Shown in pieces: positions 1 to 35,455 of a DNA stretch of 36,425 bases. A program made the translations under genes and the position numbers. Position 1 is the first letter of the stretch, and the number at the start of each line of letters is the position of its first letter. Below the pieces are notes generated by a model. That model saw only the letters and a program-made list of their open reading frames with translations. It ran no database searches and had not been told where the DNA came from. Origin of the DNA: Bacteroidaceae bacterium (GTDB lineage Bacteria > Bacteroidota > Bacteroidia > Bacteroidales > Bacteroidaceae); contig JAGCNZ010000111.1 in assembly GCA_017645655.1 (NCBI GenBank), positions 1-36,425 on the forward strand, read 5' to 3'.

Positions 1-209
1 CTTAGGGGGAATTATAAACGACACGTGGAGACCCCCTAACCCCCTTTAGGGGGAATTTCAAACGACACGTGGAGACCCCCTAACCCCCTTTAGGGGGAAT
101 TTCAAACATCACGTGGGTAAAATGAAAATATCACGTGGAATATTTCAAATATCACGTGGGTAAAATTGATTTATCACGTGGAATAATTTCAAACATCACG
201 TGCCGCGTC
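1..209 (+). repeat. Phased CACGTG array, locus A
   Basis: CACGTG hexamers start at 22, 66, 110, 132, 153, 175 and 197, so the steps are 44, 44, 22, 21, 22 and 22 bp. The 44-bp units carry a GC-rich hairpin (CCCCCTAA paired with TTAGGGGG). The 22-bp units read roughly CACGTGGGTAAAATgAATTTAT. The single 21-bp unit carries GAATATTTCAAAT instead. The last hexamer is followed by CCGCGT, a cap seen at other loci. The array lies just past the stop codon of the flippase-like gene and probably begins left of the window. Function unknown. Confidence 0.9.
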
Positions 210-241
210 CTGAAACTTGGCTTGGAAAAGTCCGCAATGCC

Positions 242-1240
242 CTACTGGCTGGCTTTGCTCCTCCTCAGCGCCAGAGCCGCAGACGACCAGATGCCCAGCA
301 AGGCGACAAGCAGCGTCTGCAGCGTATGAACGATGAGCACAAACACTGCAGCCTCGGTCTGACCAACGCCGTAAAGCACCAGGACGGTCTTCACGGCGAA
401 GTGCCAAGAGCCCGCTCCGTTGGGTGTAGGCACCAGGACGGCAAACGTGCCGACCACAAAGGCGACCAGCGCTGCCATACCACCCAGCCCTGCCGTGAAG
501 TCGAAGCAGAAGAACGTGAGGTAGAAATGCAGGTAATAGCTCAGCCAAATGCCGGCGGAATAGGCGACGAAAAGCATCGGGCGCTCCACATCCCTGACCG
601 ACAGCAGGCCGTTCTTCAGGTCGGAAACGACATTTTTCGTCCTCGAGAGAATGCGGAAACGACGGGACACAAGCACGACACAAACGAGTGCGAGCAGCCC
701 GCAGGCAGCCGTCACCAGCCATCCGGTCAGCGAGAAACTCCCCAGAATGCTGCTCACGGAGACGCCGGTATGGCGGAAGAAATCCAGAAAGACGGGTATC
801 TGCGTCAGAAACGTCAGCAGGGAAAGCACAAGGATGAACAGCGTGTCGATAATCCTCTCAGTCACCACCGTGCCCACACTCATGGTGAAATTGGTGCCCT
901 CATAGCGCTTGAGCACGCCGCACCGCAGCACCTCGCCCACACGCGGCACGACCAGACTGCTGGCATAACTGAGGAAGACGGCATGGATGCAAGTGGACAG
1001 CCGCGGCCGCTCCCCGGCAGGAGCCAGCACCTGGCGCCACCTGGCAGCACGAAGCACCTGAGCCAGAACGCCGAACGGCATGCTCAGCAGCATCCACGTC
1101 CACGACATCTTGTGCTCCAAAGCGTCCGCCAACTCCTCCCATCCAATGCCACGATACATCCACCAGAGTATGCCGACAGCCAACGCCAAAGGCACCGCAA
1201 CCTTTACCGATTTGACAATCTGACTATTTGACAATTCCAC
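242..1240 (-). CDS. Flippase-like membrane protein (lysylphosphatidylglycerol synthase TM-region / YbhN family)
   Basis: A 332-residue integral membrane protein of the UPF0104 / LPG-synthase transmembrane-region family, whose members are thought to move or modify lipids in the inner membrane. Hydrophobic segments begin at about residues 12 and 46 and recur to the C-terminus. The family hallmark PRVGE is at 99-103, and a second conserved stretch PTPNGAGSWHF lies near 275-285. There is no soluble MprF-type synthase domain, so this is the transporter half only. The start is a GTG inside an octamer repeat (GTGGAATT, GTCAAATA, GTCAGATT, GTCAAATC), so the first ten residues are repeat-encoded and a TTG a few bases later is possible. 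It diverges from rsmA with overlapping promoters. The substrate cannot be read from the sequence. Confidence 0.8.
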   Translation of the reverse strand: MELSNSQIVKSVKVAVPLALAVGILWWMYRGIGWEELADALEHKMSWTWMLLSMPFGVLAQVLRAARWRQVLAPAGERPRLSTCIHAVFLSYASSLVVPRVGEVLRCGVLKRYEGTNFTMSVGTVVTERIIDTLFILVLSLLTFLTQIPVFLDFFRHTGVSVSSILGSFSLTGWLVTAACGLLALVCVVLVSRRFRILSRTKNVVSDLKNGLLSVRDVERPMLFVAYSAGIWLSYYLHFYLTFFCFDFTAGLGGMAALVAFVVGTFAVLVPTPNGAGSWHFAVKTVLVLYGVGQTEAAVFVLIVHTLQTLLVALLGIWSSAALALRRSKASQ

Positions 1241-1259
1241 AATTATTTTTGCCTTTCCT

Positions 1260-1327
1260 TTTGCGCTTTCGCTTATTCTTTGTATTTTTGCACTGCAAAG
1301 GTAAGAAATAAAATTTTAATTGTCAAA
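1260..1327. promoter_or_regulatory. Overlapping divergent promoters for rsmA and the flippase-like gene
   Basis: Plus strand: TTTG at 1260-1263, 19 bp, then TATTTTTG at 1283-1290, driving rsmA. Minus strand: TTTG at 1327-1324, 20 bp, then TACCTTTG at 1303-1296, driving the flippase-like gene. Both fit the Bacteroidota -33/-7 consensus. The two -7 boxes are only five bases apart, so simultaneous polymerase binding looks unlikely. Confidence 0.7.
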
Positions 1328-1352
1328 TTGTATAATTACCAAATTGTGAAAT
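1317..1352 (+). repeat. Octamer tandem repeat at the rsmA start
   Basis: Degenerate 8-bp units GTCAAATT, GTATAATT, ACCAAATT and GTGAAATA run up to and through the GTG start of rsmA. The flippase-like gene has the same octamer family at its own start in the opposite orientation (1207-1240), so the two arrays point outward from the shared promoter region. Confidence 0.7.
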
Positions 1353-2170
1353 ATAGCGCAGTCAAGCCGAAAAAGTTCCTCGGGCAGCATTTCCTGACCG
1401 ATTTGAGCATCGCCAGCCGCATCGCCGACACGGTGGATGCCTGCCCCGGACTGCCCATCCTGGAGGTCGGACCAGGCATGGGCGTCATGACACAGTACCT
1501 TGTTCGCAAGCCGCGACAGGTCAAAGTGGTCGAGATTGACTACGAAAGCGTGGAATACCTCAGGCGAACCTACCCCGAACTGGAGGACAGCATCATCGAA
1601 GACGACTTCCTGAAGATGCATCTCGACCGCACGTTCGGGGGCTCACCATTCGTCCTGACAGGCAACTATCCATATAACATCTCCTCGCAAATCTTCTTTA
1701 AAATGCTCGACAACAAGGACTTGATTCCCTGCTGCACAGGCATGATTCAGAAAGAAGTCGCGGAGCGAATGGCAGCAGGACCCGGCAGCAAGACCTACGG
1801 CATACTGAGCGTCCTCGTTCAGGCCTGGTATGATGTGGAATATCTCTTCACCGTGGAGCCCGGCGTCTTCAATCCCCCGCCAAAAGTTCGCAGCGCTGTC
1901 ATCCGACTGACACGCAACGCGACAACCGGCCTGGGCTGCGACGAGAAACTCTTCAAAAGGCTTGTCAAGACAACTTTCAACCAGAGGAGAAAGACCCTCC
2001 GCAACAACATCAAGCCACTCCTCACGGCACTCGAACAGGAGAGACCGGCGAAACCAGACTTCACGGCACTCCTCGCCGACCCCATCATGCAGAAACGACC
2101 GGAACAGCTCAGCGTCCAGGACTTCATCCAGCTTACCCTAAGGATTGAAGCCAACATCCCTAAATTATGA
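1346..2170 (+). CDS. rsmA: 16S rRNA (adenine-1518/1519-N6)-dimethyltransferase RsmA/KsgA
   Basis: Transfers four methyl groups from S-adenosylmethionine to two adjacent adenines near the 3' end of 16S rRNA, a late step of 30S assembly. The N-terminal signature KPKKFLGQHFL is at residues 7-17, the SAM-binding loop EVGPGMG at 40-46, and the catalytic NYPYN (family N-[LIV]-P-Y) at 107-111. The C-terminal RNA-binding part ends around the QRRKTLRNN stretch. I chose GTG at 1346: homologues start close to KPKKFLGQ, and the open frame upstream is translated promoter and octamer repeat. About 274 residues, normal for the family. Its stop lies in a heptamer repeat that also supplies the fbp start, so the two genes are probably co-transcribed and translationally coupled. 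Confidence 0.95.
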   Translation: MKYSAVKPKKFLGQHFLTDLSIASRIADTVDACPGLPILEVGPGMGVMTQYLVRKPRQVKVVEIDYESVEYLRRTYPELEDSIIEDDFLKMHLDRTFGGSPFVLTGNYPYNISSQIFFKMLDNKDLIPCCTGMIQKEVAERMAAGPGSKTYGILSVLVQAWYDVEYLFTVEPGVFNPPPKVRSAVIRLTRNATTGLGCDEKLFKRLVKTTFNQRRKTLRNNIKPLLTALEQERPAKPDFTALLADPIMQKRPEQLSVQDFIQLTLRIEANIPKL

Positions 2171-2197
2171 ATTATGAATTGTGAATTATGAATTATC
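2163..2197 (+). repeat. Heptamer repeat at the rsmA/fbp junction
   Basis: Five tandem units AATTATG, AATTATG, AATTGTG, AATTATG and AATTATC. The rsmA stop TGA and the fbp start ATG both fall in the repeat, so a change in unit number would alter their spacing. Confidence 0.85.
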
Positions 2198-4161
2198 CCG
2201 ATATGCGTCTGCTGCAGCTCCTCGCCCAAACGTTCCCCAACAGCGAGAGCGCAAGCACGGAAATCATTAATCTCGAGGCAATTCTCAGTCTTCCGAAAGG
2301 CACCGAGCACTTCGTCGCCGACATCCACGGCGAGCATGAAGCCTTCCTGCACATCCTCAGAAATGCCAGCGGAAACATAAAGAGAAAGGTCCACGACCTG
2401 TTCGACGAGTCGCTCCCCAAGCAGGAAATGCGCGACCTCTGCACCCTCATCTACTATCCAGAGAAGCGTCTCGAGATGATAGAGGAGGGCACGGACGACG
2501 ACCTCTCAGGCTTCTACGCCCGCACACTGCTGCAGCTCATACAGGTATGCCAGTCCGTGAGCAGCAAGTACACACGCAGCAAGGTCCGCAAAGCCCTGCC
2601 TCCACAGTTCGCCTACATCATCGAGGAGCTGCTGCACGAAAGCCCTAACGATGAAGATAAGGACGCTTACGTGCAACGCATCGTTGAGACCATCGTGCAA
2701 ATTGGGCAGGCGCGCAACTTCATCATTGCTGTCTGCAACGTCATCCACAAACTGAGCATCGACCGTCTTCACATCCTTGGCGACATCTTCGACCGTGGTC
2801 CGGGGGCTCACATCATCATGGACTACTTGCTTTCTCGCGAGAATTTCGACCTGCAGTGGGGCAATCACGATGCGCTCTGGATGGGTGCCGCTGCCGGTCA
2901 GGACGCGTGTATCGCCATTGTCTTGCGTCTCTCGTTGCGATTTGCGAACTTAGCCACGCTCGAAGAAGGCTATGGCATCAACCTCTTGCCGCTCGCCACG
3001 TTTGCCATGGAGACGTATGCCGACGACCCTTGCCTGCAGTTCCGGCCTATCGGGACGCTGGCCGAGGTGAAGGGCGACGAGAAGCGCCTGCGCCTCATTG
3101 CCCAGATGCACAAGGCCATTTCCGTCATTCAGTTCAAGCTCGAGGGGCAGCTCGTACGCCAGCATCCCGAGTGGAACATCGACCGCCGGGGCACGCTGGA
3201 GAACATCGACCTCGGTCGCGGCACCTATCGCTTCGAGGGGAAGGACTATCCGCTGCTCGACTCCTTCTTCCCTACCATTGACAAAGACGACCCCTATCGC
3301 CTGACGGAAGAGGAAGAGGAACTCATGAAGCGGCTCCACCACTCGTTCCGCATCTCCGAGAAACTGCAGAAGCACATCCGCTGCCTCTTCAGTCACGGCT
3401 CGATGTTCACGGTCTGCAACAGCAATCTCCTCTTCCATGCGTCCGTCCCACTCAATGCCGACGGCAGCCTGAGACAGGTCATGATAGACGGCAAACCCTT
3501 CGAGGGACGCGAACTCATGCAGCAAATCGAGTTCAAGATGCGCACAGCATATCCCTCTACCCTTGGAGGAAGACGGAAAGTGGCAAGCCGCGACTTCTTC
3601 TGGTACCTGTGGTGCGGTCCCGACAGCCCGCTCTTCGACAAGGACAGAATGGCCACCTTCGAGCGTTATTTCCTTGCCAATCCGGCCACGCACCACGAGG
3701 AGAAAGGCGCCTACTACCAGCTCAGGGAAGACCCCGCCGTGTGCACCCGCATCCTGGACCACTTCGGGGTGGAGGGCGAGACGCGCCACATCATCAACGG
3801 CCACGTGCCCGTCCATGCCAGCCGGGGCGAGAACCCCATCAAGGCCGACGGCATGCTCATGGTCATCGACGGCGGATTCTCGAAGTCGTACCACCGCACG
3901 ACGGGCATCGCAGGCTATACGCTCGTCTATCACAGCCGCGGGTTCGAGCTCATTCAGCACGAGCCGTTCACGAGCACCGCAGAGGCCGTCGCCAACGGCA
4001 CCGACATCAAGAGCAGCATGCAAATCGTCGAGATGATGGGCCGCCGCATCCGCGTGCGCGACACCGACAAGGGACGACAGATTCAGCAGCAGATTTCGGA
4101 ACTCCGCAGCCTGCTCCACGCCTACCGCCACGGCATCATCCGCGAGAACACGAAGAAGTAA
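2188..4161 (+). CDS. fbp: Class III fructose-1,6-bisphosphatase
   Basis: Hydrolyses fructose 1,6-bisphosphate to fructose 6-phosphate, the committed step of gluconeogenesis. This is the large metallophosphoesterase-type (class III) enzyme of Firmicutes and Bacteroidota, not the class I enzyme of enterics. At 657 residues it has the usual length. Metal-binding motifs of the calcineurin-like fold are visible: ADIHGEHEAF from residue 44, GDIFDRGPG at 198-206 and WGNHDALWMG from 224. Later histidines in NGHVPVHASRGENPIKADG fit the remaining metal site. The chosen ATG lies in the heptamer repeat; an ATG five codons later would also serve. It follows rsmA by 17 bases and ends before repeat locus B. 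Confidence 0.95.
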   Translation: MNYPDMRLLQLLAQTFPNSESASTEIINLEAILSLPKGTEHFVADIHGEHEAFLHILRNASGNIKRKVHDLFDESLPKQEMRDLCTLIYYPEKRLEMIEEGTDDDLSGFYARTLLQLIQVCQSVSSKYTRSKVRKALPPQFAYIIEELLHESPNDEDKDAYVQRIVETIVQIGQARNFIIAVCNVIHKLSIDRLHILGDIFDRGPGAHIIMDYLLSRENFDLQWGNHDALWMGAAAGQDACIAIVLRLSLRFANLATLEEGYGINLLPLATFAMETYADDPCLQFRPIGTLAEVKGDEKRLRLIAQMHKAISVIQFKLEGQLVRQHPEWNIDRRGTLENIDLGRGTYRFEGKDYPLLDSFFPTIDKDDPYRLTEEEEELMKRLHHSFRISEKLQKHIRCLFSHGSMFTVCNSNLLFHASVPLNADGSLRQVMIDGKPFEGRELMQQIEFKMRTAYPSTLGGRRKVASRDFFWYLWCGPDSPLFDKDRMATFERYFLANPATHHEEKGAYYQLREDPAVCTRILDHFGVEGETRHIINGHVPVHASRGENPIKADGMLMVIDGGFSKSYHRTTGIAGYTLVYHSRGFELIQHEPFTSTAEAVANGTDIKSSMQIVEMMGRRIRVRDTDKGRQIQQQISELRSLLHAYRHGIIRENTKK

Positions 4162-4184
4162 GGAACAGCCGTCGCTCCCAGCCT

Positions 4185-4425
4185 CCTCTCAAGACGTCGG
4201 ACGGAGACGTCCCTAACCAAAGACCCCTCTAACTCCCCCTAAACGTGAAGACCACCTAACCCCCTTTAGGGGGAATTATAAACGTCACGGGAAGACCCCC
4301 TAACCCCCTTTAGGGGGAATTTCAAACATCACGTGGGTAAAATGAAAATATCACGTGGAATATTTCAAATATCACGTGGGTAAAATTGATTTATCACGTG
4401 GGTAAAATGCAAACATCCCACGCGA
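4185..4425 (+). repeat. Phased CACGTG array, locus B, with a flanking hairpin
   Basis: Hexamers (some degenerate) start at 4242, 4286, 4330, 4352, 4373 and 4395, with a worn one expected at 4417. The steps are 44, 44, 22, 21, 22 and 22, the same as locus A at a constant offset of 4220 bp. From about 4284 to 4400 the sequence is almost identical to 64-180. Just upstream a short inverted repeat pairs GACGTC (4193-4198) with GACGTC (4206-4211). The array fills the gap between convergent fbp and pssA. Confidence 0.9.
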
Positions 4426-4437
4426 CATTTTGTTTCG

Positions 4438-5139
4438 TTACGCTTTGACTATCCTGGGGAAGGCAATCGAGACGACCACATACCAGATAATTATAGCCGC
4501 AAGAGCCGAGTAGCCAAGCAGCAAGAGGGGCAGGCAGCCGATGAGGAAGACGTAGCGCTGCCTGTTGTCCGCCCAGCTCAGATTCTTGAACTTCAGCGCC
4601 AGCATGGGCACTTCGCTCACCAGCAAAAAGCAGAAAAGCAGCATGAAGAGGAAAAGGAAGACTGCGTTGAACTTGAGCGAGACGAGGAAGGCATGCTCGC
4701 CCAGCACGAGGCTGCCCCAGAAGAGGGCATTGGCGGGCGTTGGCAATCCGATGAACCCATAGTGCTGACGCTCGTCGAGGTTGAACTTGGCAAGCCTTAA
4801 AGCCGAGAACGCCGCCATCAGGAATGCCGTGTAGGGCAGGAATCTCCTTATCGGGAGCAACACCTCGGGCATGTGCACCTCGTGGAACAAGTAGAAAATA
4901 ATCGCGCTGGGAGCGACACCGAAGGTAACGACGTCGGCCAGCGAATCGAGTTCCTTGCCTATGGGCGACGAGACGCCGAGAGCCCTGGCCACCATGCCGT
5001 CGAAGAAATCGAACACGGCCCCAAGGACTATCATCAGCACTGCAAAATGATACTGACCGTAGAACGCACAGCCTGTAGCCATGCAGCCGCAGATGAGGTT
5101 GCAGCAAGTAATGGAATTCGGAATGTGTCGCTTAATCAT
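4438..5139 (-). CDS. pssA: CDP-diacylglycerol--serine O-phosphatidyltransferase
   Basis: Makes phosphatidylserine from CDP-diacylglycerol and L-serine in the inner membrane, the first step towards phosphatidylethanolamine. The CDP-alcohol phosphotransferase signature is complete: D44, D47-G48, A51-R52, G61, D65 and D69 in the order DG-x2-AR-x8-G-x3-D-x3-D. Several hydrophobic segments follow through to the C-terminus. I chose the start giving MIKRHIPNSITCCNL, where homologues begin; an upstream in-frame start would overlap psd. Length 233 residues, typical of the Bacteroidota and Bacillus-type enzyme. It starts four bases after the psd stop, so psd and pssA form an operon covering both steps. 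The C-terminus runs to repeat locus B. Confidence 0.93.
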   Translation of the reverse strand: MIKRHIPNSITCCNLICGCMATGCAFYGQYHFAVLMIVLGAVFDFFDGMVARALGVSSPIGKELDSLADVVTFGVAPSAIIFYLFHEVHMPEVLLPIRRFLPYTAFLMAAFSALRLAKFNLDERQHYGFIGLPTPANALFWGSLVLGEHAFLVSLKFNAVFLFLFMLLFCFLLVSEVPMLALKFKNLSWADNRQRYVFLIGCLPLLLLGYSALAAIIIWYVVVSIAFPRIVKA

Positions 5140-5143
5140 TTCA

Positions 5144-5881
5144 TTAGCCGTTTTGAGGTTCCTCCTGTTCCGGAGCAGCATCTGGAGCAAGGTCCTTCAG
5201 CCTGGCAACAATGGTTTCATTGCCGACGGTCTTCTGGTTGAGCTTCACCAAGACCTCGGTGTCCAAAGGCAGATACAGGTCAACACGCGAGCCGAACTTG
5301 ATGAAGCCAAGGTGCTCGTCGACGTAGCAATCCTCGCCCACCGTGGGATAGGTGACGATGCGGCGCGCCATGGCACCCGCCACCTGACGCGCCAGAATCT
5401 CCGTTCCGTCGGGTGTCTCGATGACGACGGTGCATCGCTCGTTCTCCTCGCTTGCCTTCGGCAGCCACGCTTTATGGAAGTTGCCGTCGTAGTGCTGTAC
5501 ATACTTCACCGTGCCGTCCACCGGAATCCAGTTGGCATGCACATTGAAAAGACTCATGAAGATGCTCACCATGATGCGTCTGTCGTGGAAATACTCTGTC
5601 TCCTCCGTCTCTTCCACCACGACGACCTTGCCGTCGGCAGGTGCCAGAACCAGCCCCTCCGTCTCGCCATCGAAGGTGCGGATGGGACACTGGAAGAAGT
5701 TGAGCAGCACCGCATAGAGAATGGCGCTCACCATTATGCAGATGTCGAAGGGAAGCCTCGACTCGAAGATATGAAGTATAGCGAAGTTGAGCACCCCGAG
5801 GAAAATGGCACTCCATAAAAGCGTGTCTTTTCCTTCGTGATGCAACCTTATCTTTTTCAGTTTTCGTAACCTTTTACCCAT
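5144..5881 (-). CDS. psd: Phosphatidylserine decarboxylase proenzyme (short type)
   Basis: Converts phosphatidylserine to phosphatidylethanolamine. The enzyme is made as a proenzyme that cleaves itself before a serine, which becomes the pyruvoyl cofactor. That serine is visible as S198 in FGSRVD (residues 196-201), leaving a large N-terminal beta chain and a short alpha chain. Two hydrophobic helices near residues 20-62 anchor it to the membrane. Conserved stretches include [10 protein letters not shown] and [13 protein letters not shown]. The 245 residues fit the short archaeal/Bacteroidota form rather than the longer enteric form. It is the first gene of the psd-pssA operon and is divergent from dnaE. 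Confidence 0.93.
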
Positions 5882-6041
5882 ACGTTTTTCATATAGTGCG
5901 GGTCAAAGTTACAAATTTTTAGTTGAACTACGAACAATGAACATTGATTTTTTACTAAATTCTGAAAAAATACACGCTCCACATTCTTCAATCCCTAATC
6001 TTTTCGTATCTTTGCCTTCTCATTATATAATATAGGTACAC
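5882..6041. promoter_or_regulatory. Divergent intergenic region psd / dnaE
   Basis: A 160-bp AT-rich gap. A minus-strand -7 box TAACTTTG (5911-5904) faces psd, and a plus-strand -7 box TATCTTTG (6007-6014) faces dnaE. I could not find a convincing TTTG -33 box at the right distance for either. No repeat array is present, unlike most gaps in this window. Confidence 0.55.
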
Positions 6042-9761: not shown

Positions 9762-9774
9762 TAAGCATAAGACT

Positions 9775-10089
9775 ATGGCACAAGTAATCAACAGTGGTAA
9801 CTTCGAGGCTCTGGTGGCAACCGGCAAGCCTCTCGTATTGGACTTTTGGGCAACGTGGTGCGGCCCTTGCAAGCGCCTTGCTCCCGTCATCGAGGAACTG
9901 GCAAAGGACTTCGACGGCATGGCCATCGTGGGCAAATGCGACGTGGAAGAAGACGAAGACCTGCCCATGCGCTTTGGTGTGCGCAACATCCCTACCGTCG
10001 TCTTCATTAAGGACGGCAAGGAGGTGGACCGCAGCGTCGGTCTTGTACCCAAGCCCGCTCTCGAAGAGAAGATAAAGGCAATGCTCTGA
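9775..10089 (+). CDS. trxA: Thioredoxin
   Basis: A single-domain cytoplasmic thioredoxin of 104 residues that passes electrons to ribonucleotide reductase, peroxidases and methionine sulfoxide reductases. The redox site WCGPC is at residues 28-32 and is followed by KR. The cis-proline is in NIPTVV, and the C-terminal helix AL-E-KIKAML completes the fold. There is no signal peptide, so it is not a TlpA-like periplasmic protein. It lies between dnaE (13 bases upstream) and a small acidic protein (about 40 bases downstream, across a heptamer repeat), probably in one transcription unit. Confidence 0.95.
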   Translation: MAQVINSGNFEALVATGKPLVLDFWATWCGPCKRLAPVIEELAKDFDGMAIVGKCDVEEDEDLPMRFGVRNIPTVVFIKDGKEVDRSVGLVPKPALEEKIKAML

Positions 10090-10098
10090 TTCCCATCC

Positions 10099-10126: not shown

Positions 10127-10129
10127 CGC

Positions 10130-11985: not shown

Positions 11986-12120
11986 CGACGCCGTAAAACG
12001 TCACGTGGGTTAATTCAAATTATAACGTGGGTAAAATGAATTTATCACGTGGAATATTTTAAATATCACGTGGGTAAAATCAATTTATCACGTGGGTAGT
12101 TTGAAATTATCACACGTCGC
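11986..12120 (+). repeat. Phased CACGTG array, locus C
   Basis: Hexamers start at 12002, 12024 (AACGTG), 12046, 12067, 12089 and 12111 (CACACG), giving steps of 22, 22, 21, 22 and 22. The 21-bp unit again carries GAATATTTTAAAT. The last unit is followed by TCGCGA, a worn form of the CCGCGT cap. There are no 44-bp hairpin units here. The array fills the gap between convergent cysS and the DUF4294 gene. Confidence 0.9.
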
Positions 12121-12122
12121 GA

Positions 12123-13828: not shown

Positions 13829-13941
13829 GATAACGTGGGATAATTGAATTTATCACGTGGGTAAAATCAAATTATTACGTGGAATATTTCAAATATCACG
13901 TGGGTAAAATGAATTTATCACGTGGGTCATTTGAAAACGTA
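13829..13941 (+). repeat. Phased CACGTG array, locus D
   Basis: Hexamers start at 13832 (AACGTG), 13854, 13876 (TACGTG), 13897 and 13919, with steps of 22, 22, 21 and 22. The 21-bp unit carries GAATATTTCAAAT. The terminal unit at about 13941 has decayed beyond recognition. The 127 bp between the radical SAM stop and the array holds nothing I can name. It lies between convergent genes. Confidence 0.88.
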
Positions 13942-17188: not shown

Positions 17189-17325
17189 ACGCAGCACGCG
17201 TCGTTTTCAAATGACCCACGTGATAAATTAAATTTACCCACGTGATAATTTCATTTTACCCACGTAATATTTAAAATATTCCACGTAATAATTTCATTTT
17301 ACCCACGTGACGTTTTCCTGCCCTG
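17189..17325 (-). repeat. Phased CACGTG array, locus E (reverse orientation)
   Basis: Hexamers start at 17195 (CACGCG), 17217, 17239, 17261 (CACGTA), 17282 (CACGTA) and 17304, giving steps of 22, 22, 22, 21 and 22. The 21-bp unit contains AATATTTAAAATATT. Read on the minus strand, the array ends in a CGCGTG-CTGCGT cap, as at locus G. This is one of two arrays in a divergent gap (nadB / metH). Confidence 0.9.
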
Positions 17326-25399: not shown

Positions 25400-25414
25400 G
25401 AACAAGGTATGTTG

Positions 25415-25456
25415 ACAAATATCACGTGGGTAAATTCAATTTATCACGTGCCGCGT
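25415..25456 (+). repeat. Phased CACGTG array, locus F (short)
   Basis: Only two hexamers, at 25423 and 25445, 22 bp apart. The second is followed by CCGCGT, the terminal cap. It lies between convergent genes, beside a strong terminator. Confidence 0.8.
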
Positions 25457-25483
25457 TTGGAGAGACAGCGTGGAATGACGAAA

Positions 25484-25523
25484 AATTAGCCGTGCTCGGT
25501 TTGTGGACTGAGCACGGCTAATT
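25484..25523. terminator. Bidirectional terminator hairpin
   Basis: A perfect 14-bp stem: AATTAGCCGTGCTC (25484-25497), a 12-nt loop, GAGCACGGCTAATT (25510-25523). It is preceded by a short A-run and followed by TGTTTG, so it can serve both the GT-C gene and the convergent beta-helix gene. Confidence 0.85.
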
Positions 25524-25549
25524 GTTTGTAAACCTATGGGGATAAAGGT

Positions 25550-28393: not shown

Positions 28394-28427
28394 ATAATAT
28401 ATATAATGTATAAACGTTTAGTGACTG

Positions 28428-28458
28428 CAAAAATATGACATTTTGTTCATTTATCAAA
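28428..28458 (-). promoter_or_regulatory. Promoter of the beta-helix gene
   Basis: Minus strand: TTTG at 28458-28455, 19 bp, then TATTTTTG at 28435-28428, about 35 bases before the start codon. Close to the Bacteroidota consensus. Confidence 0.75.
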
Positions 28459-28559
28459 CGTTTTAGAGAATAATATGCACACAATTCCTACCTTTTGCAC
28501 AGCGTGGAGACCGTAAAGGCATCAGCAGGGAGATTATCGTCGCAGAACAGGTAGCCGGA

Positions 28560-28731
28560 AAGCGACGCGTGAAGACCTCCTGACCACCTTTAGGAGGAAT
28601 TGAAAACATCACGTGGGTAAAATAAATTTATCACGTGGGTAAAATGAAATTATTACGTGGAATATTTTAAATATTACGTGGGTAAAATGAATTTATCACG
28701 TGGGTCATTTCAAATTATCGCATGCTGCGTG
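28560..28731 (+). repeat. Phased CACGTG array, locus G
   Basis: Hexamers start at 28566 (CGCGTG), 28610, 28632, 28654 (TACGTG), 28675 (TACGTG), 28697 and 28719 (CGCATG). The steps are 44, 22, 22, 21, 22 and 22. The 44-bp unit holds a hairpin CCTCCTGA/TTAGGAGG in which both arms differ from loci A and B but still pair. The last hexamer is followed by CTGCGT, a cap variant. Divergent gap between the beta-helix gene and dacB. Bases 28459-28559 show nothing recognisable. Confidence 0.9.
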
Positions 28732-28745
28732 TTTTGGTGTTAAAC

Positions 28746-28883
28746 AAAAAAATTCCTGTTTTCCTTTGCGTTTCTCTCACTTATTCGTAACCGTGACTGG
28801 CGTCGAACTTACTCTCGCTCGGAAACGCAACTGAAAAAAATTCCTGTTTTCCTTTGCGTTTCCCTCACTTATTCGTAACTTTG
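28746..28883 (+). promoter_or_regulatory. dacB promoter with a decayed upstream duplicate
   Basis: The active copy has TTTG at 28853-28856, 19 bp, then TAACTTTG at 28876-28883. A 46-bp segment (28834-28879) is duplicated 88 bp upstream (28746-28791) with one mismatch, but there the -7 box reads TAACCGTG (28788-28795), so that copy is probably dead. GGAAACGCAA (28821-28830) and TTGCGTTTCC form an inverted repeat across the -33 box. The same module drives metH. Confidence 0.7.
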
Positions 28884-28904
28884 CACCCATAAACGCACGT
28901 TCGG

Positions 28905-30233
28905 ATGAAATACACAAAGTATCTGCTGCTGATTCTTTTGCTGGCATCGTGTGCCTCGAAACGCACCATACGCCAGCACGGCTATCAGCCCTACGTCCCT
29001 TCTGCCGCGCCAGCCGTGGTGCAGGAGCCTGCGCAGGTGGTGGTCGAGGAAGAGGTGGCAGCGGAAGAACCCGTGGTGAGCGCCCGGCCGCTTATCTCGC
29101 AAGTGCGTCGCGCTCCCGAAGGCACTTGGCAAGCAGCCAAGCAGCAAGCACTGGAACAACTGTGCCAGTCGCCCATCTTCGAGACCACACAACTCGGACT
29201 CTACGTGTATGACCTGACCGATGGGGAGCCTCTGTTTGCCGTCAACGCTGCACAGAGAATGCGCCCCGCCTCGTGCCAGAAAGTGGTGACGGCTGTCACG
29301 GCACTCCACTTCCTCAGAAACGACTTCAAACTGACTACGGACTTCCGCATCACAGGAACAGTGAGCGGCGGCGTCCTCAACGGCGACCTCATCGTGGTAG
29401 GCGGCATGGACCCGCTCGTCACCTCTGCCGAGCTGCTCCAGGCAGCTGCCTCCATCCGGCAACAGCAAGGCATACAACGCATCACGGGAAACATCATCTA
29501 CGACCGCTCGATGCGCGAGGACACACCCTACGGCTGGGGATGGTGCTGGGACGACGACTATGGGCCGCTCTCGGCACTGCTCGTCGACGGCAAAGACAAC
29601 TTCGAGCAGAAATGGACAAACGCTTTGGAGCAGGCCGGCATCACGGTCGGCTACGCTGCCGGCACAGGAAAAAAAGGCAAGCAACAAACGAAGTCTGTCT
29701 ACGCAATACGCCACTACATCGACGATTTGCTGGCTCCCATGATGAAGCAAAGCGACAACATCTATGCCGAATGCCTGTTCTATCAGACAGCAGCCACTAC
29801 CGGAAAGAAAGGCGCAGGACATAAAGAAGCCGCACAAAGGACGGAAGAACTGCTCAGACGAATCGGCGTGAATCCCACTCCCTACAAGGTCGCCGACGGA
29901 AGCGGGCTGTCGCTCTACAACTATGTCTCAGCCGAAATGCTCGTCGCCCTGCTCGGCTATGCCTGGCAGACTGAGTCGATCAGGGAACATCTGCTGCCAT
30001 CGCTGCCTGTCTCAGGCTACGACGGCACCCTCAAAAACAGGATGACAGGCACTGCGGCCGAAGGCAACGTCAGGGCCAAGACAGGCACCGTGACCGGCAT
30101 CTCCTCGCTCGCAGGATACATCACGGCAGCAAACGGACACGTACTCGCCTTCGCCATCATCAACCAAGGCGTGGCACAAGCATCAATGGGGCGCGCCTTC
30201 CAGGACAAGGTATGCCAGGAACTTTGCCAATAA
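28905..30233 (+). CDS. dacB: D-alanyl-D-alanine carboxypeptidase/endopeptidase (PBP4 type, family S13)
   Basis: A low-molecular-weight penicillin-binding protein that trims or opens peptidoglycan cross-links in the periplasm. The three active-site motifs are intact: S123-C-Q-K126 (SxxK, nucleophile S123), S283-D-N (SxN) and K392-T-G. The start MKYTKYLLLILLLASCASK is a lipoprotein signal with lipobox LASC, so it is probably anchored by a lipid at the cysteine. Residues 30-60 are a valine/glutamate-rich tether (VVQEPAQVVVEEEVAAEEP) before the catalytic domain. The large insert between SxxK and SxN is usual in S13 enzymes. 442 residues. It has its own promoter; a small gene follows 49 bases after. 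Confidence 0.93.
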   Translation: MKYTKYLLLILLLASCASKRTIRQHGYQPYVPSAAPAVVQEPAQVVVEEEVAAEEPVVSARPLISQVRRAPEGTWQAAKQQALEQLCQSPIFETTQLGLYVYDLTDGEPLFAVNAAQRMRPASCQKVVTAVTALHFLRNDFKLTTDFRITGTVSGGVLNGDLIVVGGMDPLVTSAELLQAAASIRQQQGIQRITGNIIYDRSMREDTPYGWGWCWDDDYGPLSALLVDGKDNFEQKWTNALEQAGITVGYAAGTGKKGKQQTKSVYAIRHYIDDLLAPMMKQSDNIYAECLFYQTAATTGKKGAGHKEAAQRTEELLRRIGVNPTPYKVADGSGLSLYNYVSAEMLVALLGYAWQTESIREHLLPSLPVSGYDGTLKNRMTGTAAEGNVRAKTGTVTGISSLAGYITAANGHVLAFAIINQGVAQASMGRAFQDKVCQELCQ

Positions 30234-30282
30234 CCCTACGTATAACGACTGAAACACATTATAAACCCAAAACTTAACTGTT

Positions 30283-30861
30283 ATGAAAAAGATTTTAGCA
30301 ATGATGGCACTGGCCATCTCACTGCCTACAATGGCACAAAGCATGTACGACGGCAAGAGCTGCGCCGAGTGGCAAGCAGAGTTCAACACTGAAGTAACAA
30401 GGCTGAAAATGGAGTTGAAAACACTGAAACAAAACGCTAAATTGGCCGGCGCATCGACCAGCGTAGCCGAAATTAGCCAGAAGGCTGCTGAACTGAAGAA
30501 GGCCGAAGCAAACCTCAAGGTTGCCAAGAAAGCCGCTGCTCTCGAGAAGAAAGGCGAATCCTCACACGAAAAGGCTCAGAACAGAACACTCAAACTGCAG
30601 TCTCAACAAGCAAAGCACTCGGACAAACTCACTAAGATGCAGAGCAAGGAGACCAAGGCTGAGCAAGCTGTCACCAAGGCTGAACAAAACTTGCAAAAGG
30701 CTCAGCAGAAACTCGAAAACGTTCGCGCTGAGATAGAAAGCACAAAGCGCGACATTGAAAACGTGAAGGAAGAGCATGAGACGGCCAAGGGCGACATCGA
30801 CGAAGCCAAGACCCTGAAGGAACAAGCCAAGAAGATGCTCATCAACGGCGTAGTGAAGTAA
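30283..30861 (+). CDS. Exported coiled-coil protein of unknown function
   Basis: A 192-residue secreted protein with a clean signal peptide (MKKILAMMALAISLPTMAQ, cleavage after AQ). The mature chain has one cysteine near its start (GKSCAEWQAEF) and is then almost wholly charged helix from about residue 35 to 185, rich in Lys, Glu, Gln and Ala, with runs such as KAEQAVTKAEQNLQKAQQKL that give a long coiled coil. I do not recognise a family. It may act as a periplasmic scaffold or envelope tether next to the cell-wall hydrolase upstream. It may share the dacB transcript; no clear promoter was seen in the 49-bp gap. A strong terminator follows. Confidence 0.75.
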   Translation: MKKILAMMALAISLPTMAQSMYDGKSCAEWQAEFNTEVTRLKMELKTLKQNAKLAGASTSVAEISQKAAELKKAEANLKVAKKAAALEKKGESSHEKAQNRTLKLQSQQAKHSDKLTKMQSKETKAEQAVTKAEQNLQKAQQKLENVRAEIESTKRDIENVKEEHETAKGDIDEAKTLKEQAKKMLINGVVK

Positions 30862-30901
30862 GAGAACAAAGCGTGCCGAGTTTGAAAACCAAGCACGTGA
30901 T

Positions 30902-30955
30902 GATGACCAACACAGCACGTTAAGTTGACCGACTTAACACGCTGTGTTTGTCATC
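30902..30955. terminator. Long bidirectional terminator hairpin
   Basis: Left arm 30902-30925 and right arm 30932-30955 are 24 nt each and complementary except at three positions, one a G-U wobble, with a 6-nt loop TGACCG. It separates the coiled-coil gene from the convergent methyltransferase gene; the right arm touches the latter's stop codon. One isolated CACGTG lies just upstream at 30894. Confidence 0.8.
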
Positions 30956-31491
30956 TAACCACGTTGCAACTCTTTTCTCGACATATACCAAAGGACGATA
31001 CCGGCTGCGACGCTGACATTCAAACTGTGCTTCGTGCCGTACTGAGGTATCTCAAGACAGCCGTCGCACATGTCGACAACCTCCTGCTGAACACCCTTCA
31101 CTTCATTACCAAGCACGATGGCATACCTCACTTCGGGCTGTCGCTGAAAGTCTTGCAGCATGGTGCTACCCTCGCATTGCTCAATGGCAAGAACCGTGTA
31201 TCCCTGCTCCTTCAGCCAACATACCGCGTCTTCCGTCCGCTCGAAATACTTCCAGTCCACACTCTCCTCTGCCCCAAGCGCTGTCTTATGGATTTCAGGA
31301 TGAGGAGGACAGGCTGTGATGCCACATAACACGACACACGCTATGCGGAAAGCATCGCTGCTACGGAACACACTGCCTACATTGTAAAGACTCCTCACAT
31401 GGTCCAATACCACCACAATCGGCTGCTTGTCCGAGGCTCTGTACTCAGCCACACTCATGCGCCCCATCTCCGTAACTTTCAACTTTCTCAT
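30955..31491 (-). CDS. TrmH/SpoU-family RNA 2'-O-methyltransferase
   Basis: A 178-residue SPOUT methyltransferase. The three SpoU motifs are present: LDHVRSLYNVGSVFRSSDAF from residue 29 (catalytic-type N37 and R43), IVLGNEVKGV near 127, and IPQYGTKHSLNVSVAAGI near 149 forming the SAM-binding knot. It lacks the N-terminal RNA-binding extension of RlmB and the C-terminal extension of TrmH, so it is the minimal form; it probably methylates a tRNA or rRNA ribose, but the target cannot be told. The stop codon abuts the terminator hairpin. Its start faces the candidate origin region. Confidence 0.88.
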   Translation of the reverse strand: MRKLKVTEMGRMSVAEYRASDKQPIVVVLDHVRSLYNVGSVFRSSDAFRIACVVLCGITACPPHPEIHKTALGAEESVDWKYFERTEDAVCWLKEQGYTVLAIEQCEGSTMLQDFQRQPEVRYAIVLGNEVKGVQQEVVDMCDGCLEIPQYGTKHSLNVSVAAGIVLWYMSRKELQRG

Positions 31492-31499
31492 GCTTCTAT

Positions 31500-31927
31500 G
31501 ACTATTTTTATGTTGACAAAGTTAACACTTTCTGTGGATAAGTTGGTGAATAAGTTGGAAGTTATTCACAATAAAAGCAGCAAAACGCACCTGCACAACC
31601 CTTTATCAACACTAACCAAAAGTTATAAAACTTGTTTCAACGCAAAAAATGAGACTTATCAAAGCAGCATATCAAAGAAATTTATTAACTTTGCATATTG
31701 TTAACAGGTGTGGATAATTCTCCGTAGAAAAGCAGAGCATCGAACTGACAGACAAGGGATAAGTAGCGTAGCAGGGCAGTTGATAAGTCAGGCAAGAATG
31801 TTGAAGAAGTGTGAACAACGTTTCGAGCGATGAAATGAAGTAAAATGTTATAAACTTATCAACCGCATATCATCATCATCATAAAGTATTTATTTTAAAA
31901 TATAAAAAGAAATATAATAATATAAAG
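31500..31927. other. Candidate chromosomal replication origin (oriC)
   Basis: A 436-bp AT-rich gene-free stretch with three exact DnaA boxes (TTATNCACA): 31533-31541 (minus), 31562-31570 (plus) and 31709-31717 (minus). One-mismatch boxes lie at 31545-31553, 31603-31611 and 31810-31818. Three of these fall within 38 bp. GTTAAC palindromes occur at 31521 and 31700. From 31880 to 31925 almost every base is A or T, suitable as an unwinding element. A -7-like TAACTTTG at 31686-31693 may serve nadA. In Bacteroidota the origin need not be next to dnaA. Box clustering of this kind is absent from the other gaps I scanned. Confidence 0.65.
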
Positions 31928-32911
31928 ATGGTTGACAACACATGGAAGGCTGCCGGTTTCGTTACGGAACCCGTGCCGCAGGGAACGGACATGAAGGCTG
32001 AGATACGCCGTATGTGCAAGGAAAAGAATGCTATCATCATGGCGCATTACTACACGCATGGTGAGATACAGGACATTGCCGACTTCGTAGGCGACAGTCT
32101 TGCGCTGGCTCAGCAGGCTGCGAAGACGGATGCGGACATCATCGTGATGTGTGGCGTCCACTTCATGGGCGAGACGAACAAGATTCTCTGCCCAGACAAG
32201 AAGGTCCTCGTGCCTGACCTCAACGCCACTTGCTCCCTGGCTGAAAGTTGTCCGCCGAAGGAGTTCGGCGAGTTCGTGAAAGCCCATCCTGGTCATACAG
32301 TCATCAGTTACGTGAACACGACTGCTGCCATAAAAGCCCTTACCGATGTGGTAGTGACGAGTGGCAACGCGCTGAAGATAGTTAACTCGCTGCCTAAGGA
32401 CGAGAAGATAATATTCGGTCCTGACCGCAACCTCGGCAATTACATCAACTCGATTACTGGCAGGGAGATGCTCCTCTGGGATGGCGCTTGCCATGTTCAC
32501 GAGAAGTTCAGCTTGGAACGAATCCTTGAATTGAAAGCCGACCATCCCCACGCCAAGATACTTGTCCACCCAGAATGCAAGGGACCTATCGTCAAGGTGG
32601 CTGACAAGGTAGGCAGCACGGCTGCTCTTCTCAAGTTCAGTCAGGAAGACGAGGCAACCGAGTTTATCGTCGCGACTGAGAGTGGCATCCTCCACAAGAT
32701 GCAGCAAGCCTGTCCGCAGAAGCTCTTCCTTCCTGCTCCGCCTGACGACAGCACATGTGCATGCAACGAGTGCAACTACATGAAGCTCATCACGATGGAG
32801 AAGCTCTACAATTGCTTGAAGTATGAATGGCCGGAGATAAAGGTCGACAAGAACGTTGCGGAGAAAGCCGTGAAGTGCATCAACAGAATGCTCGACCTTT
32901 CGGCACAATAA
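31928..32911 (+). CDS. nadA: Quinolinate synthase
   Basis: Condenses iminoaspartate, made by NadB, with dihydroxyacetone phosphate to give quinolinate for NAD synthesis; an oxygen-sensitive 4Fe-4S enzyme. The 327-residue protein has MAHYYTHGEIQDIADFVGDS near the start, candidate cluster cysteines C102 (NATCSLAESC), C188 (DGACHVHEKF) and a C-terminal cysteine in STCACNECNYMK, plus the substrate-contact HPECKGP. Extra cysteines in the CACNEC stretch are common in this subfamily. It is preceded by the AT-rich candidate origin. nadB lies about 15 kb away on the other strand, and nadC is not in the window. Confidence 0.95.
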   Translation: MVDNTWKAAGFVTEPVPQGTDMKAEIRRMCKEKNAIIMAHYYTHGEIQDIADFVGDSLALAQQAAKTDADIIVMCGVHFMGETNKILCPDKKVLVPDLNATCSLAESCPPKEFGEFVKAHPGHTVISYVNTTAAIKALTDVVVTSGNALKIVNSLPKDEKIIFGPDRNLGNYINSITGREMLLWDGACHVHEKFSLERILELKADHPHAKILVHPECKGPIVKVADKVGSTAALLKFSQEDEATEFIVATESGILHKMQQACPQKLFLPAPPDDSTCACNECNYMKLITMEKLYNCLKYEWPEIKVDKNVAEKAVKCINRMLDLSAQ

Positions 32912-32939
32912 TTATAATACGATACATTACATATTATAT

Positions 32940-32975
32940 AGTTGTAAATTGTACATTGTCAAATTGTAAATCAAC
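32940..32975 (+). repeat. Octamer/heptamer repeat before the antiporter gene
   Basis: Units TTGTAAAT, TGTACAT, TGTCAAAT and TGTAAATC (7-8 bp) occupy most of the 69-bp gap between nadA and the next GTG start. The unit belongs to the same family as the octamers at the rsmA and flippase starts. Confidence 0.7.
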
Positions 32976-32980
32976 TTAGG

Positions 32981-35227
32981 GTGTCTCCTTTAATAACCGA
33001 TCTGGCGTATATACTTGTTGTTGCAAGCGTGGTGACCATCATCTTCAAGCGCTTGAAGCAACCGCTCGTGCTTGGTTATATTGTGGCGGGATTCCTGGCA
33101 GGACCGCACATGACCTACACCCCTTCGGTCAGCAGCATGGAGGGTATCGAGGAGTGGAGCCAGATGGGAGTCATCTTCTTGATGTTTACACTTGGCCTTG
33201 AGTTCTCGTTTAAGAAGATTGTGAAGATGGGTATGCAACCCATCCTGACTGCCATCATGATTATGTGCTGCATGATAGGTGTGGGCGGCATGGTGGCGTC
33301 GCTGTTCGGTTGGAGCAACATGGACAGGGTTTTTCTCGGGGGAATGCTGAGCATGAGCTCAACGACGATTATCTACAAGGCGTTCGACGACCTGGGACTC
33401 AGGAGCAAGCGTTTTGCGTCGGGAGTCATTTCGGTGCTTATCATCGAAGACATACTTGGCATTCTTCTCATGGTGATGCTGAGTGCGCTGGCAGTGAGCC
33501 GAACCTTCCAAGGCTTTGAACTCATCAAGAGCCTCATGCAGCTCGGGTTCTTCTTGCTGCTTTGGTTCATCGTCGGCATCTACCTGCTTCCGCTTCTTTT
33601 GCGTAAGGCTAAGAGTTACATTAACAGCGAAACCTTGCTCGTCGTCTCGGTTGGACTGTGTTTCCTGATGGCTGTGGTGGCCACCAGGGTTGGTTACAGT
33701 CCTGCTTTCGGTGCGTTTATGATGGGAAGTATCCTGGCCGAAACGCTTGAGGCAGAGAGCATCGAGAAGGGAGTAAGCTCGCTTCGAGACTTGTTTGGGG
33801 CAGTCTTCTTCGTGTCTGTAGGCATGATGGTGGAGCCTTCGATATTGCTTGAGTACTGGCTTCCGATATTGGTTTTGACGCTTGGAGTCGTGCTTGGGCA
33901 GATGTTTTTCGGCAGTCTGAGCTTCTTTGCGACGAGCGGCAATGTCCAGTCGGCCGTGCGAAGTGGCTTCTCGATGGTGCAGATAGGTGAGTTTGCCTTC
34001 ATCATCGCGGCTTTGGGACAAGAGCTTGGAGTGACGAGTCAGTTCCTCTATCCGGTCGTCGTCTCTGTGAGTATCATCACGACCTTCCTGACGCCTTACA
34101 TCATCAAGCTCGCTCCGAAGTCTGCCAACCGCATTGAGAGTTCCCTGAGCAGCGAGATACAGTCGCTCATCAAGCACGGCAAGACGTTCGCAGTAAACAG
34201 GCGAGTGGACCGCATGAGGCTGTCGAAGGGCCTTGCATGGAAGCGTTTGTTGTCAGCAATCCTCTCTCAGACGGCTGCTTACCTGACCATCAGCATTGCT
34301 CTTGCCCTGTTCAGTTTTGCCACGATTCTGCCTCTGTTCCAACACATTGTTGGCGAGAAATACGTCAACATCGTGGGACTCTTCATCACCTTGCTGCTCC
34401 TGTCGCCCTGCATCAGAGCGATTGTAGTGAAGAAGAACAATAGTAGAGAGTCAAAATACCTGATTTCATCGGGCAAAATGGCTGCTTTCCTGGTCCGTCT
34501 TCTGCTTTTTGGTAAGGCATTATTGGGCTTTATAATAATATTTAATGTAGTGTCTTCCGTCCTTCCTCTCTGGTGGGTTTGGGAAATGCTCATCAGCCTG
34601 GCGGCCCTCGTCGTCATAGTCCTGAGCCGTCTTGTCAAGTACATAAGCATCAGGATGGAGCGCACATTCAAGCAGAACCTGCGGCTCAGGGAGCAACAGA
34701 ACGCTTTGAGTTATGGCAAGCGGCTGAGGGGAAAGGACTTGCAGATAGCCCGAGTGAAGATTCCTGCCCATTCGCGTTGGGGCGGCAAGACGCTTGCGCA
34801 ACTGCATTTCGGCAAGACCGACCGTGTCCACATCGCGGCTATCCTGCGGGCAGGACACAGGATAAACATCCCCGGCGGCAGCCATCGCATCTATCCCGGC
34901 GACGTCCTCGAGGTGGTGGCAGGCACCGAAGCCATCGAGTCTCTGCGTCTGCGAAGCGAACAGGAGGTGCTGCCTCTGCAGGAGCGGAACAAGGAGACGC
35001 ACAACCTGACTGTCATCTCGCTCAAACTTGGCGAGAGTAGCCCCCTGATAGGGCACACCTTGCAGGACGTCGACTTCCGCTTGCGCTACCATTGCATGGT
35101 GGTAGGAGTGGAAAACGAAGAGGGTCATCTCGGCATCGTCCCAGCGAAGCGTCAGTTCATGGAAAACGATATCGTGTGGGTCGTAGGCGAGGAAGCCGAC
35201 CTCAGCGTGCTCTCGATGGTGATTTAG
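32981..35227 (+). CDS. CPA2-family cation:proton antiporter with two C-terminal RCK_C domains
   Basis: A 748-residue membrane protein. Residues 5-375 form a Na+/H+ exchanger (CPA2) unit: QPLVLGYIVAGFLAGPH, MFTLGLEFSFKK, SMSSTTIIYKAF, GVISVLIIEDILGIL and AFGAFMMGSILAETLEAE. A further set of four or so helices spans about 421-553. Two RCK_C (TrkA_C) domains follow, at about 590-665 and 672-748. There is no NAD-binding RCK_N, so it differs from KefB/KefC; RCK_C domains are thought to sense small ligands such as nucleotides. It probably exports K+ or Na+ for pH or turgor control. The GTG start follows the octamer repeat; the next suitable start would cut into the first helix. It converges on polA. 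Confidence 0.85.
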   Translation: MSPLITDLAYILVVASVVTIIFKRLKQPLVLGYIVAGFLAGPHMTYTPSVSSMEGIEEWSQMGVIFLMFTLGLEFSFKKIVKMGMQPILTAIMIMCCMIGVGGMVASLFGWSNMDRVFLGGMLSMSSTTIIYKAFDDLGLRSKRFASGVISVLIIEDILGILLMVMLSALAVSRTFQGFELIKSLMQLGFFLLLWFIVGIYLLPLLLRKAKSYINSETLLVVSVGLCFLMAVVATRVGYSPAFGAFMMGSILAETLEAESIEKGVSSLRDLFGAVFFVSVGMMVEPSILLEYWLPILVLTLGVVLGQMFFGSLSFFATSGNVQSAVRSGFSMVQIGEFAFIIAALGQELGVTSQFLYPVVVSVSIITTFLTPYIIKLAPKSANRIESSLSSEIQSLIKHGKTFAVNRRVDRMRLSKGLAWKRLLSAILSQTAAYLTISIALALFSFATILPLFQHIVGEKYVNIVGLFITLLLLSPCIRAIVVKKNNSRESKYLISSGKMAAFLVRLLLFGKALLGFIIIFNVVSSVLPLWWVWEMLISLAALVVIVLSRLVKYISIRMERTFKQNLRLREQQNALSYGKRLRGKDLQIARVKIPAHSRWGGKTLAQLHFGKTDRVHIAAILRAGHRINIPGGSHRIYPGDVLEVVAGTEAIESLRLRSEQEVLPLQERNKETHNLTVISLKLGESSPLIGHTLQDVDFRLRYHCMVVGVENEEGHLGIVPAKRQFMENDIVWVVGEEADLSVLSMVI

Positions 35228-35243
35228 AAGCAGACGTTTTGAA

Positions 35244-35455
35244 ACGCGGCACGTGATGTTTTGCGTCTGCGCACTAAAAAGCGCGACTTGGTGCTGAGGC
35301 ATCCAGGAATTCACCCACGTGATAAATTGATTCTACCCACGTGATAAATTGATTTTACCCACGTGATATTTGAAATATTCCACGTGATAAATTGATTTTA
35401 CCCACGTGATAAATTGATTTTACCCACGTGATAATTTCAATTTACCCACGTGATG
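35244..35455 (-). repeat. Phased CACGTG array, locus H (reverse orientation)
   Basis: Seven intact hexamers start at 35316, 35338, 35360, 35381, 35403, 35425 and 35447, with steps of 22, 22, 21, 22, 22 and 22. An isolated one at 35250 is 66 bp (3 x 22) from the first and, read on the minus strand, is followed by CCGCGT, the cap. This is the most regular copy; most units are identical. Gap between convergent antiporter and polA genes. Confidence 0.92.

Follow-up and report, generated by a model that had tools for sequence, protein, structure and literature searches.

Arrays of palindromic words at a constant 22-bp step near gene ends in a gut Bacteroidales genus

The described systems closest to the arrays reported here are two kinds of intergenic repeat. 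Repetitive extragenic palindromic sequences and bacterial interspersed mosaic elements (REP/BIME) are palindromes of 20-40 bp carrying a GTAG or CGTC tag, in families that differ between species, whereas BrickBuilt, a minisatellite-type miniature inverted-repeat transposable element (MITE) of Porphyromonas gingivalis, comprises 23-nt intergenic tandem repeats at 19 loci, in as many as 22.8 copies, between leader and tail segments that bear terminal inverted repeats (PMC3733652 and PMC4596501, respectively). Here we analyse arrays of the palindromic hexamer CACGTG in a stretch of 36,425 nucleotides from a Bacteroidaceae bacterium (GenBank assembly GCA_017645655.1, contig JAGCNZ010000111.1), which we call the window, and their counterparts in related genomes. 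The arrays resemble REP/BIME in that both are scattered palindromes outside genes, for the most part downstream of them and between tandem or convergent ones (PMC3733652), but their consensus units lack the GTAG or CGTC tag, no RAYT transposase was found in the window genome, and they keep a strict 22-bp direct step across species with unrelated words. With BrickBuilt they share the intergenic tandem arrangement, a similar unit length and an origin in Bacteroidales; they differ in their period of 22, in showing no leader or tail, in edges that grade into diverged in-register units, in a word that changes between species and in loci numbering in the hundreds (PMC4596501). A match to a named repeat family, which an earlier note, drawn from the letters of the window alone, had set as a ground for refuting its proposal, did not emerge as regards tag, RAYT, leader and tail, and a search of literature listings, with subscription journals mostly outside it, returned no description of such arrays.

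Cooperative protein sites at a spacing of about two helical turns are familiar from plasmid iterons and operator arrays, although iterons are usually not palindromic; those systems are single origins or operators, whereas the arrays described here occupy hundreds of chromosomal loci behind genes. We find that the arrays of the window are one case of a genus-level pattern of 22-bp arrays. Their word and their spacing are under constraint, and we think it somewhat more probable than not that they serve as cooperative sites for a putative symmetric DNA-binding protein with a species-specific word, which would mark or insulate the ends of transcription.

Constant spacing and changing words

Exact CACGTG occurs 37 times in the window, whereas 100 shuffles gave 10.0 copies on average (sd 3.4). 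Eight loci with 22-bp CACGTG ladders had been proposed, and their coordinates proved correct within a few bases. With sites counted at no more than one mismatch to CACGTG, seven of the eight arrays (all except array F) contain exactly one 21-bp step, as had also been claimed, and in all seven the 21-bp unit reads GAATATTT(C/T)AAATAT. The window genome (G000) is a draft of 130 contigs and 2.74 Mb, 84% complete, of which stretches totalling 649 kb were examined. The earlier note had held that genome-wide copies showing no preference for 22/21-bp spacing would speak against its proposal; exact CACGTG pairs at 21 or 22 bp number 502 genome-wide, compared to 2 for a reversed-pattern control, and central 21-bp units number 188 (control 0), a few of them adjacent doubles. 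Of 43 arrays sampled over 363 kb, 36 had one 21-bp step, seven had none and none had two, and the central unit was typically flanked on each side by one to three further units. Within the 649 kb, distances of up to 100 bp between exact hexamers fell at 22 (118 occurrences), 43 (73), 65 (69), 87 (38), 21 (35), 44 (33), 66 (6) and 88 bp (5), with one to three occurrences each at 20, 24, 42, 45, 46, 63, 67, 85 and 89 bp. The cores of these arrays are uniform and their edges diverged, and the cores join older outer units in register: CGTG stood in place in the second and third units to the left in 27/55 and 14/55 arrays, and in the third and fourth hexamers to the right in 23/55 and 10/55, with a mean of 0.3 at far positions. 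The edges tend to AAAC on the left and GTTT on the right, which may be halves of outer units.

A high copy number of CACGTG is special to the window genome. Pairs at 21 or 22 bp occur at least once in 14 of 24 genomes of the same genus, with a maximum of 29, and in none of 16 genomes from other families. The 22-bp step is more widespread than this word, and the idea of CACGTG as the defining feature therefore stands for the step and falls for the word, because relatives carry other palindromes at the same step. At the gaps orthologous to arrays B, C and H the word of G043 is CCGCGTGCGG; that of G008 is TAACGTGTTA; the sister species G012 and G024 share GGTTAACC; and G005 has three different words at the orthologous sites compared. 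Word searches in six genomes, which admitted steps of 13-35 bp, gave 260 matches in G043 and 209 in G008 on both strands, and 114 palindrome matches in G024 and 105 in G012 on one strand, with reversed controls at 0 throughout and 0-15 matches for the same searches in other species. Among the matches listed, the steps were all 22 bp save one row and two places in two respective searches. In sampled stretches of G024, G008 and G043, every same-strand pair of words within 100 bp lay at 22, 44, 66 or 88 bp (39/39, 38/38 and 40/40, or 117/117), while the spacers were distinct in 32/32, 41/44 and 39/53 cases, respectively. These stretches came from contigs with word matches at the same admitted steps of 13-35 bp, which raises the density of arrays and leaves the preference for 22 bp unaffected; the spacer statistics required a word with at most three mismatches at +22, and the distance statistics did not. 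In nucleotide identity over the C-terminal 315 codons of polA, G012 and G024, which have the same word, stand at 98%, and the window's species and G005, with 502 and 15 CACGTG pairs, at 88%. We thus show that one word prevails per genome and differs between species, and that the 22-bp distance is kept while the letters of the spacer change. The claim that spacing is far better preserved than sequence is accordingly sustained, both within the genome and across the genus.

The constraint on the word could be measured between the sister species G012 and G024, in a rate test on six orthologous arrays that covers one species pair and one word. Substitutions were found at 1/192 word positions, 5/108 positions within 3 nt of the word, 21/144 mid-spacer positions and 62/506 positions of the outside flank (taken within 50 bp and partly coding). 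Word and mid-spacer thus differ 28-fold in rate of change (p 1e-7), whereas mid-spacer and flank do not differ (p 0.48). Even words that are imperfect in both species had none of 48 positions changed. Gap columns numbered 0/444 inside the arrays against 23/529 outside, and the word positions were identical in all six. Three of the six arrays had been selected by word matches in both species, whereas the sites of H, B and C were chosen from the window instead; these three alone give 1/96 for the word against 10/72 for the mid-spacer (p 0.001).

These rates bear on the notion that the arrays are a neutral satellite, in which an ancestral 22-bp repeat drifts in its letters, gene conversion homogenises it across the genome, and the period is merely inherited. 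The sharing of a word by sisters and not by more distant species would agree with such drift, as would the homogeneous cores and diverged edges of the window genome. However, conversion should homogenise the spacers as well, and in G024 and G008 almost every spacer is distinct; together with the 28-fold difference between word and mid-spacer, this leaves satellite drift a decidedly unlikely account.

The step itself recurs in relatives at orthologous positions. In the gap behind the DUF4294 gene that corresponds to array C, the arrays of relatives keep the 22-bp step with other words. We scored such gaps blindly by whichever lag from 13 to 40 bp matched best, at an identity of at least 0.6, with the window's own genome left out, using 45 of 80 loci for site C and 30 loci each for sites H, D and B (of 40, 37 and 30 matching genomes), from which one too-short locus was dropped at D and one at B. 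Lag 22 was best in 13/45 relatives at site C, 7/29 at H and 5/28 at B (plus one at 21); any other lag won at most three times, and in the 350 bp that precede the genes at sites H, D and B lag 22 was best in 0/89. When 133 loci from close and distant relatives (1.44 Mb) were scanned with a detector at each lag from 13 through 39, 67 arrays came out at 22, 11 at 21, 6 at 23 and at most 5 at any other lag, where it should be kept in mind that nine of the 133 loci (L036-L044), the source of 7 of the 64 listed arrays, had been picked on contigs with CACGTG pairs and so favour lag 22. In 16 stretches from other families (197 kb) the detector found one array each at lags 16, 18, 22 and 36. Autocorrelation of 6-mers, with multiples of 3 and 7 set aside, put lag 22 first in 11 of the 24 genus members and in one genome of 16 from other families; eight of the forty sampled stretches likewise came from contigs with CACGTG pairs, favouring lag 22 there. 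Among the species examined, the single 21-bp step is regular only in that of the window, and arrays with a 21-bp period occur elsewhere.

Some further repeats were observed alongside these. Locus L283 (G013, orthologous gap of site B) has, within 350 bp after position 3465, a 21-bp-period array of the palindrome GAAAATATATTTTC and a 7-bp linker. Tandem repeats with 7-bp-type periods (lags 7, 14 and 21) lie behind genes of several relatives at L050, L072, L237 and L253 and are apparently another kind of repeat at similar places. Eleven near-perfect 22-bp copies with no clear palindrome stand at a contig start (L126:1-268, G002:C14), where the assembly may cut the array. In the window genome, the words of G043 or G008 appear in a few arrays (G000:C116:1454-1506 and G000:C57:17036-17089), one of them with a spacer also present in G043; transfer, an ancestral remnant or a misbinned contig are possibilities.

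Location behind genes and symmetry of the units

Arrays sit mainly at the 3' ends of genes, above all between convergent genes. According to gene calls that were crude and made for this analysis (the gene to the right of array B was missed), only 1 of 65 arrays in the 649 kb lay inside a called gene, as did 0 of 51 in G008, G024 and G043. Among gaps of 100-400 bp in the window genome, an array was present in 21/29 convergent, 19/76 tandem and 3/30 divergent ones (convergent against divergent, p 9.5e-7); above 400 bp the numbers were 2/7, 9/23 and 6/19, and convergent gaps below 100 bp had an array in 0/24. From an array to a neighbouring 3' end the median distance was 53 bp, and to a neighbouring 5' end it was 162 bp. 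In relatives, gaps of 100-400 bp held arrays in 14/45 convergent, 12/137 tandem and 1/54 divergent cases, and the convergent bias was present but weaker in G043 (5/10 convergent, 2/9 divergent).

That the arrays keep out of genes and of short divergent gaps is also what one would expect of selfish dispersed repeats akin to REP/BIME or MITEs, which an unseen transposase or recombination would spread and which would settle where they do least harm, behind genes. The hundreds of near-identical cores in the window genome fit this idea too, as do orthologous gaps that lack an array and are just a few bases long (L049). On the other hand, the Y1 transposase (RAYT, PF01797) had 0 matches in the draft of the window genome and a match in 4 of 16 genus genomes searched, the window's included, only one of them strong; an exact match to the array core of the window genome was absent from viral contigs; the cores are joined to older outer units in register, unlike a transposon insertion; and in three relatives the word recurs with mostly differing spacers, which means that the arrays are not recent copies. 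We therefore consider a selfish origin unlikely.

The convergent location could alternatively point to strong gyrase or topoisomerase sites which, like BIME-2, absorb positive supercoils between convergent genes. In E. coli, BIME-2 and the regions downstream of operons draw gyrase, whose motif spans 130 bp with a G/C content phased at about 10 bp (PMC6379681), and arrays of 5-7 units approach that length. Phasing of GC at about 11 bp is, however, absent in the arrays of relatives (0.089 against a null of 0.093) and weak in those of the window genome (0.122 against 0.091), which makes gyrase sites a very improbable explanation.

The consensus units of relatives are palindromic, and exactly 11 bp separate a second dyad from the first (2.44 of 5 pairs, compared to 1.22 in shuffled units, over 64 arrays; seen also in 85). 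Folding energy is lower than in column-permuted arrays on both strands, and lower than in shuffles for several window arrays. Together with the location behind genes, this symmetry beyond chance and the low folding energy could be taken to indicate that RNA or single-stranded DNA folds into hairpins where transcripts end, as terminators or barriers to RNase, within a unit or between self-complementary neighbouring words; a structured RNA had indeed been suggested for the window. That suggestion is not supported by the variation among units. Covariation of the arms within the units of relatives gave a p of 0.005 when the phase was picked on the tested quantity, and was null in an unbiased, consensus-phased repeat. 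Across spacers, the largest z was 1.6 in 56 distinct units of G008 (2.5 when duplicates were kept), no positive z was obtained in 68 distinct units of G012 and G024, and the two halves of the spacer vary independently; apparent covariation in the window genome reflects linkage of unit types. Moreover, sense and antisense strands fold alike, with 27 G-U against 34 A-C combinations, and orientation relative to genes is even in the window genome, at 14 same and 15 opposite in tandem gaps, and stands at 12 to 7 in G008 and G043 pooled. Scans of the window returned no Rfam family and no terminator-like match over the arrays, and hairpins would not need a loop of exactly fixed length. Given the lack of arm covariation and of strand bias, we regard RNA hairpins as quite improbable.

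Both orientations of the word can occur within one array with the dyad distance kept, as in 8 of 17 arrays in G043 and 3 of 20 in G008. With no covariation between arms, similar folding of the two strands and no preference for G-U over A-C, the palindromy seems to belong to double-stranded DNA rather than to a folded strand. In the mixed-orientation arrays of G043 (e.g. L280 3555-3663) the flipped word has AC at its centre where the other has GT, and with the array read GT-first it invariably comes after the GT words.

Proposed cooperative sites and candidate reader proteins

A symmetric protein binding cooperatively is suggested by four features: the word is strongly constrained, the spacer varies in its letters but not in its length, the units have dyad symmetry, and strand makes no difference. 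The conserved word, free spacer letters and fixed helical spacing expected of a cooperative site array are all present, and the best fit we found to the sequence patterns is the one that the earlier note envisaged, in which a symmetric protein binds cooperatively along a single face of the helix. An array comprises about 2 to 8 palindromic words with dyad axes 22 bp apart, each word being 6-10 bp long, with inverted arms of 3-4 bp around a centre of 0-2 bp. Supercoiled DNA has about 11 bp per turn, 22 bp thus being two turns, and all words would face the same side. The putative protein might fill neighbouring words cooperatively along that face, and the filled array might mark or insulate transcription ends, by stopping read-through or converging polymerases, or anchor the nucleoid; its specificity and the arrays would have to change together between species.

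Several observations weigh against cooperative protein sites of this kind. The gaps outside the arrays all come from the other three of the six, and the flanks of H, B and C are as free of gaps as the arrays themselves, so that the fixed length rests mainly on the spacing within genomes (the 117 of 117 pairs). The conservation rates derive from a single species pair and word, and gene conversion between arrays could keep words alike. Lag 22 was best in only 1/28 relatives at site D, and was not top in 13 of the 24 genus members by autocorrelation, for which 11-40 kb of each was read. Divergent gaps do carry arrays when longer than 400 bp (6 of 19). Several words occur within one genome in G005, G008 and G020, which a single protein would not all read, and no reader protein emerged from the ParB and RHH_1 families that were tried.

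The parS sites of ParB and Noc are palindromic with a CACGTG core, and related proteins differ in specificity. ParB is present in one copy per genome, but its helix-turn-helix segment VGKNRATIANYLRLLKLP is identical in G005, G008, G043 and G051, although these four species differ in their words, and it carries one or two changes in G000, G013 and G024; parS-like 16-mers (TGTTNCACGTGNAACA) were found 0 times in the searched stretches of G000, G008, G024 and G043. We thus rejected ParB as the reader, and also RHH_1, which had a match in one of eight genomes and none in the other seven.

One could further speculate, with somewhat less than even confidence, that the arrays form a genus-wide marking system in which the 22-bp dyad distance is inherited and the word is replaced wholesale between species, private to each at scores to hundreds of gene ends, such that reader and sites must switch specificity together. 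Such a system would be a bacterial counterpart of PRDM9, a fast-evolving recognition system. The spacing and the sequence of DNA sites, which usually co-evolve, are separated here. Were a protein to read the arrays, one would expect its recognition surface to differ from species to species under a constant architecture, yielding a natural series of matched pairs of site and reader; much of the DNA behind genes in this genus of gut Bacteroidales would acquire a role, and there would be a handle on how convergent genes are insulated in it.

The eight arrays of the window

Array A (22..202, + strand) has seven CACGTG sites at steps of 44, 44, 22, 21, 22 and 22, with its 21-bp unit at 132-152. Array B (4286..4400, +) lies between genes for FBPase (+) and a CDP-alcohol phosphatidyltransferase (-) and shows steps of 44, 22, 21 and 22 from 4286, its 21-bp unit being at 4352-4372; the full series at no more than one mismatch is 44, 44, 22, 21, 22 and then 24. 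Array C (12002..12094, +; 21-bp unit 12046-12066) occupies a convergent gap of 155 bp between the genes for cysteinyl-tRNA synthetase and DUF4294. Its steps of 22, 22, 21 and 22 agree with the series given earlier, but the further 22 claimed at its end requires the two-mismatch hexamer CACACG, and the last 22 is followed by a 24-bp step. Array D (13832..13924, +) has the same steps of 22, 22, 21 and 22, with the 21-bp unit at 13876-13896, in the convergent gap between radical SAM and TrkH genes. Array E (17195..17309, - strand) has steps of 22, 22, 22, 21 and 22 in a divergent gap of 372 bp between the genes for an FAD protein and methionine synthase. Array F (25423..25450, +) consists of two sites at a single 22-bp step in a convergent gap and lacks a 21-bp unit. 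Array G (28610..28702, +; 21-bp unit 28654-28674), in a divergent gap of 511 bp, has steps of 22, 22, 21 and 22, and an additional CGCGTG at 28566, 44 bp upstream, extends the series to 44, 22, 22, 21, 22. Array H (35316..35452, -) lies in the convergent gap between the Na/H exchanger and DNA polymerase A genes; we recovered the series 22, 22, 21, 22, 22, 22 that had been reported for it, as well as an isolated CACGTG at 35250, 66 bp off. The longer steps reported before were likewise found, 44 bp in arrays A, B and G and 66 bp in H.

Sigma-70-like promoter matches fall inside arrays C (12019-12083), D (13871-13899), E (17220-17249) and H (35406-35435); over the two halves of the window such matches number 18 and 29, against 8.9 and 15.0 in shuffles, by a model that may not suit the host phylum. 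The 44-bp steps of arrays A, B and G arise because 22-nt stretches resembling CCCCCTAACCCCCTTTAGGGGG occupy them. This element stands at 32..53 (+) between two CACGTG sites of array A, and it or a relative recurs at 76-97 in A, at 4252-4273 and 4296-4317 in B and at 28576-28597 in G, each time inside a 44-bp step.

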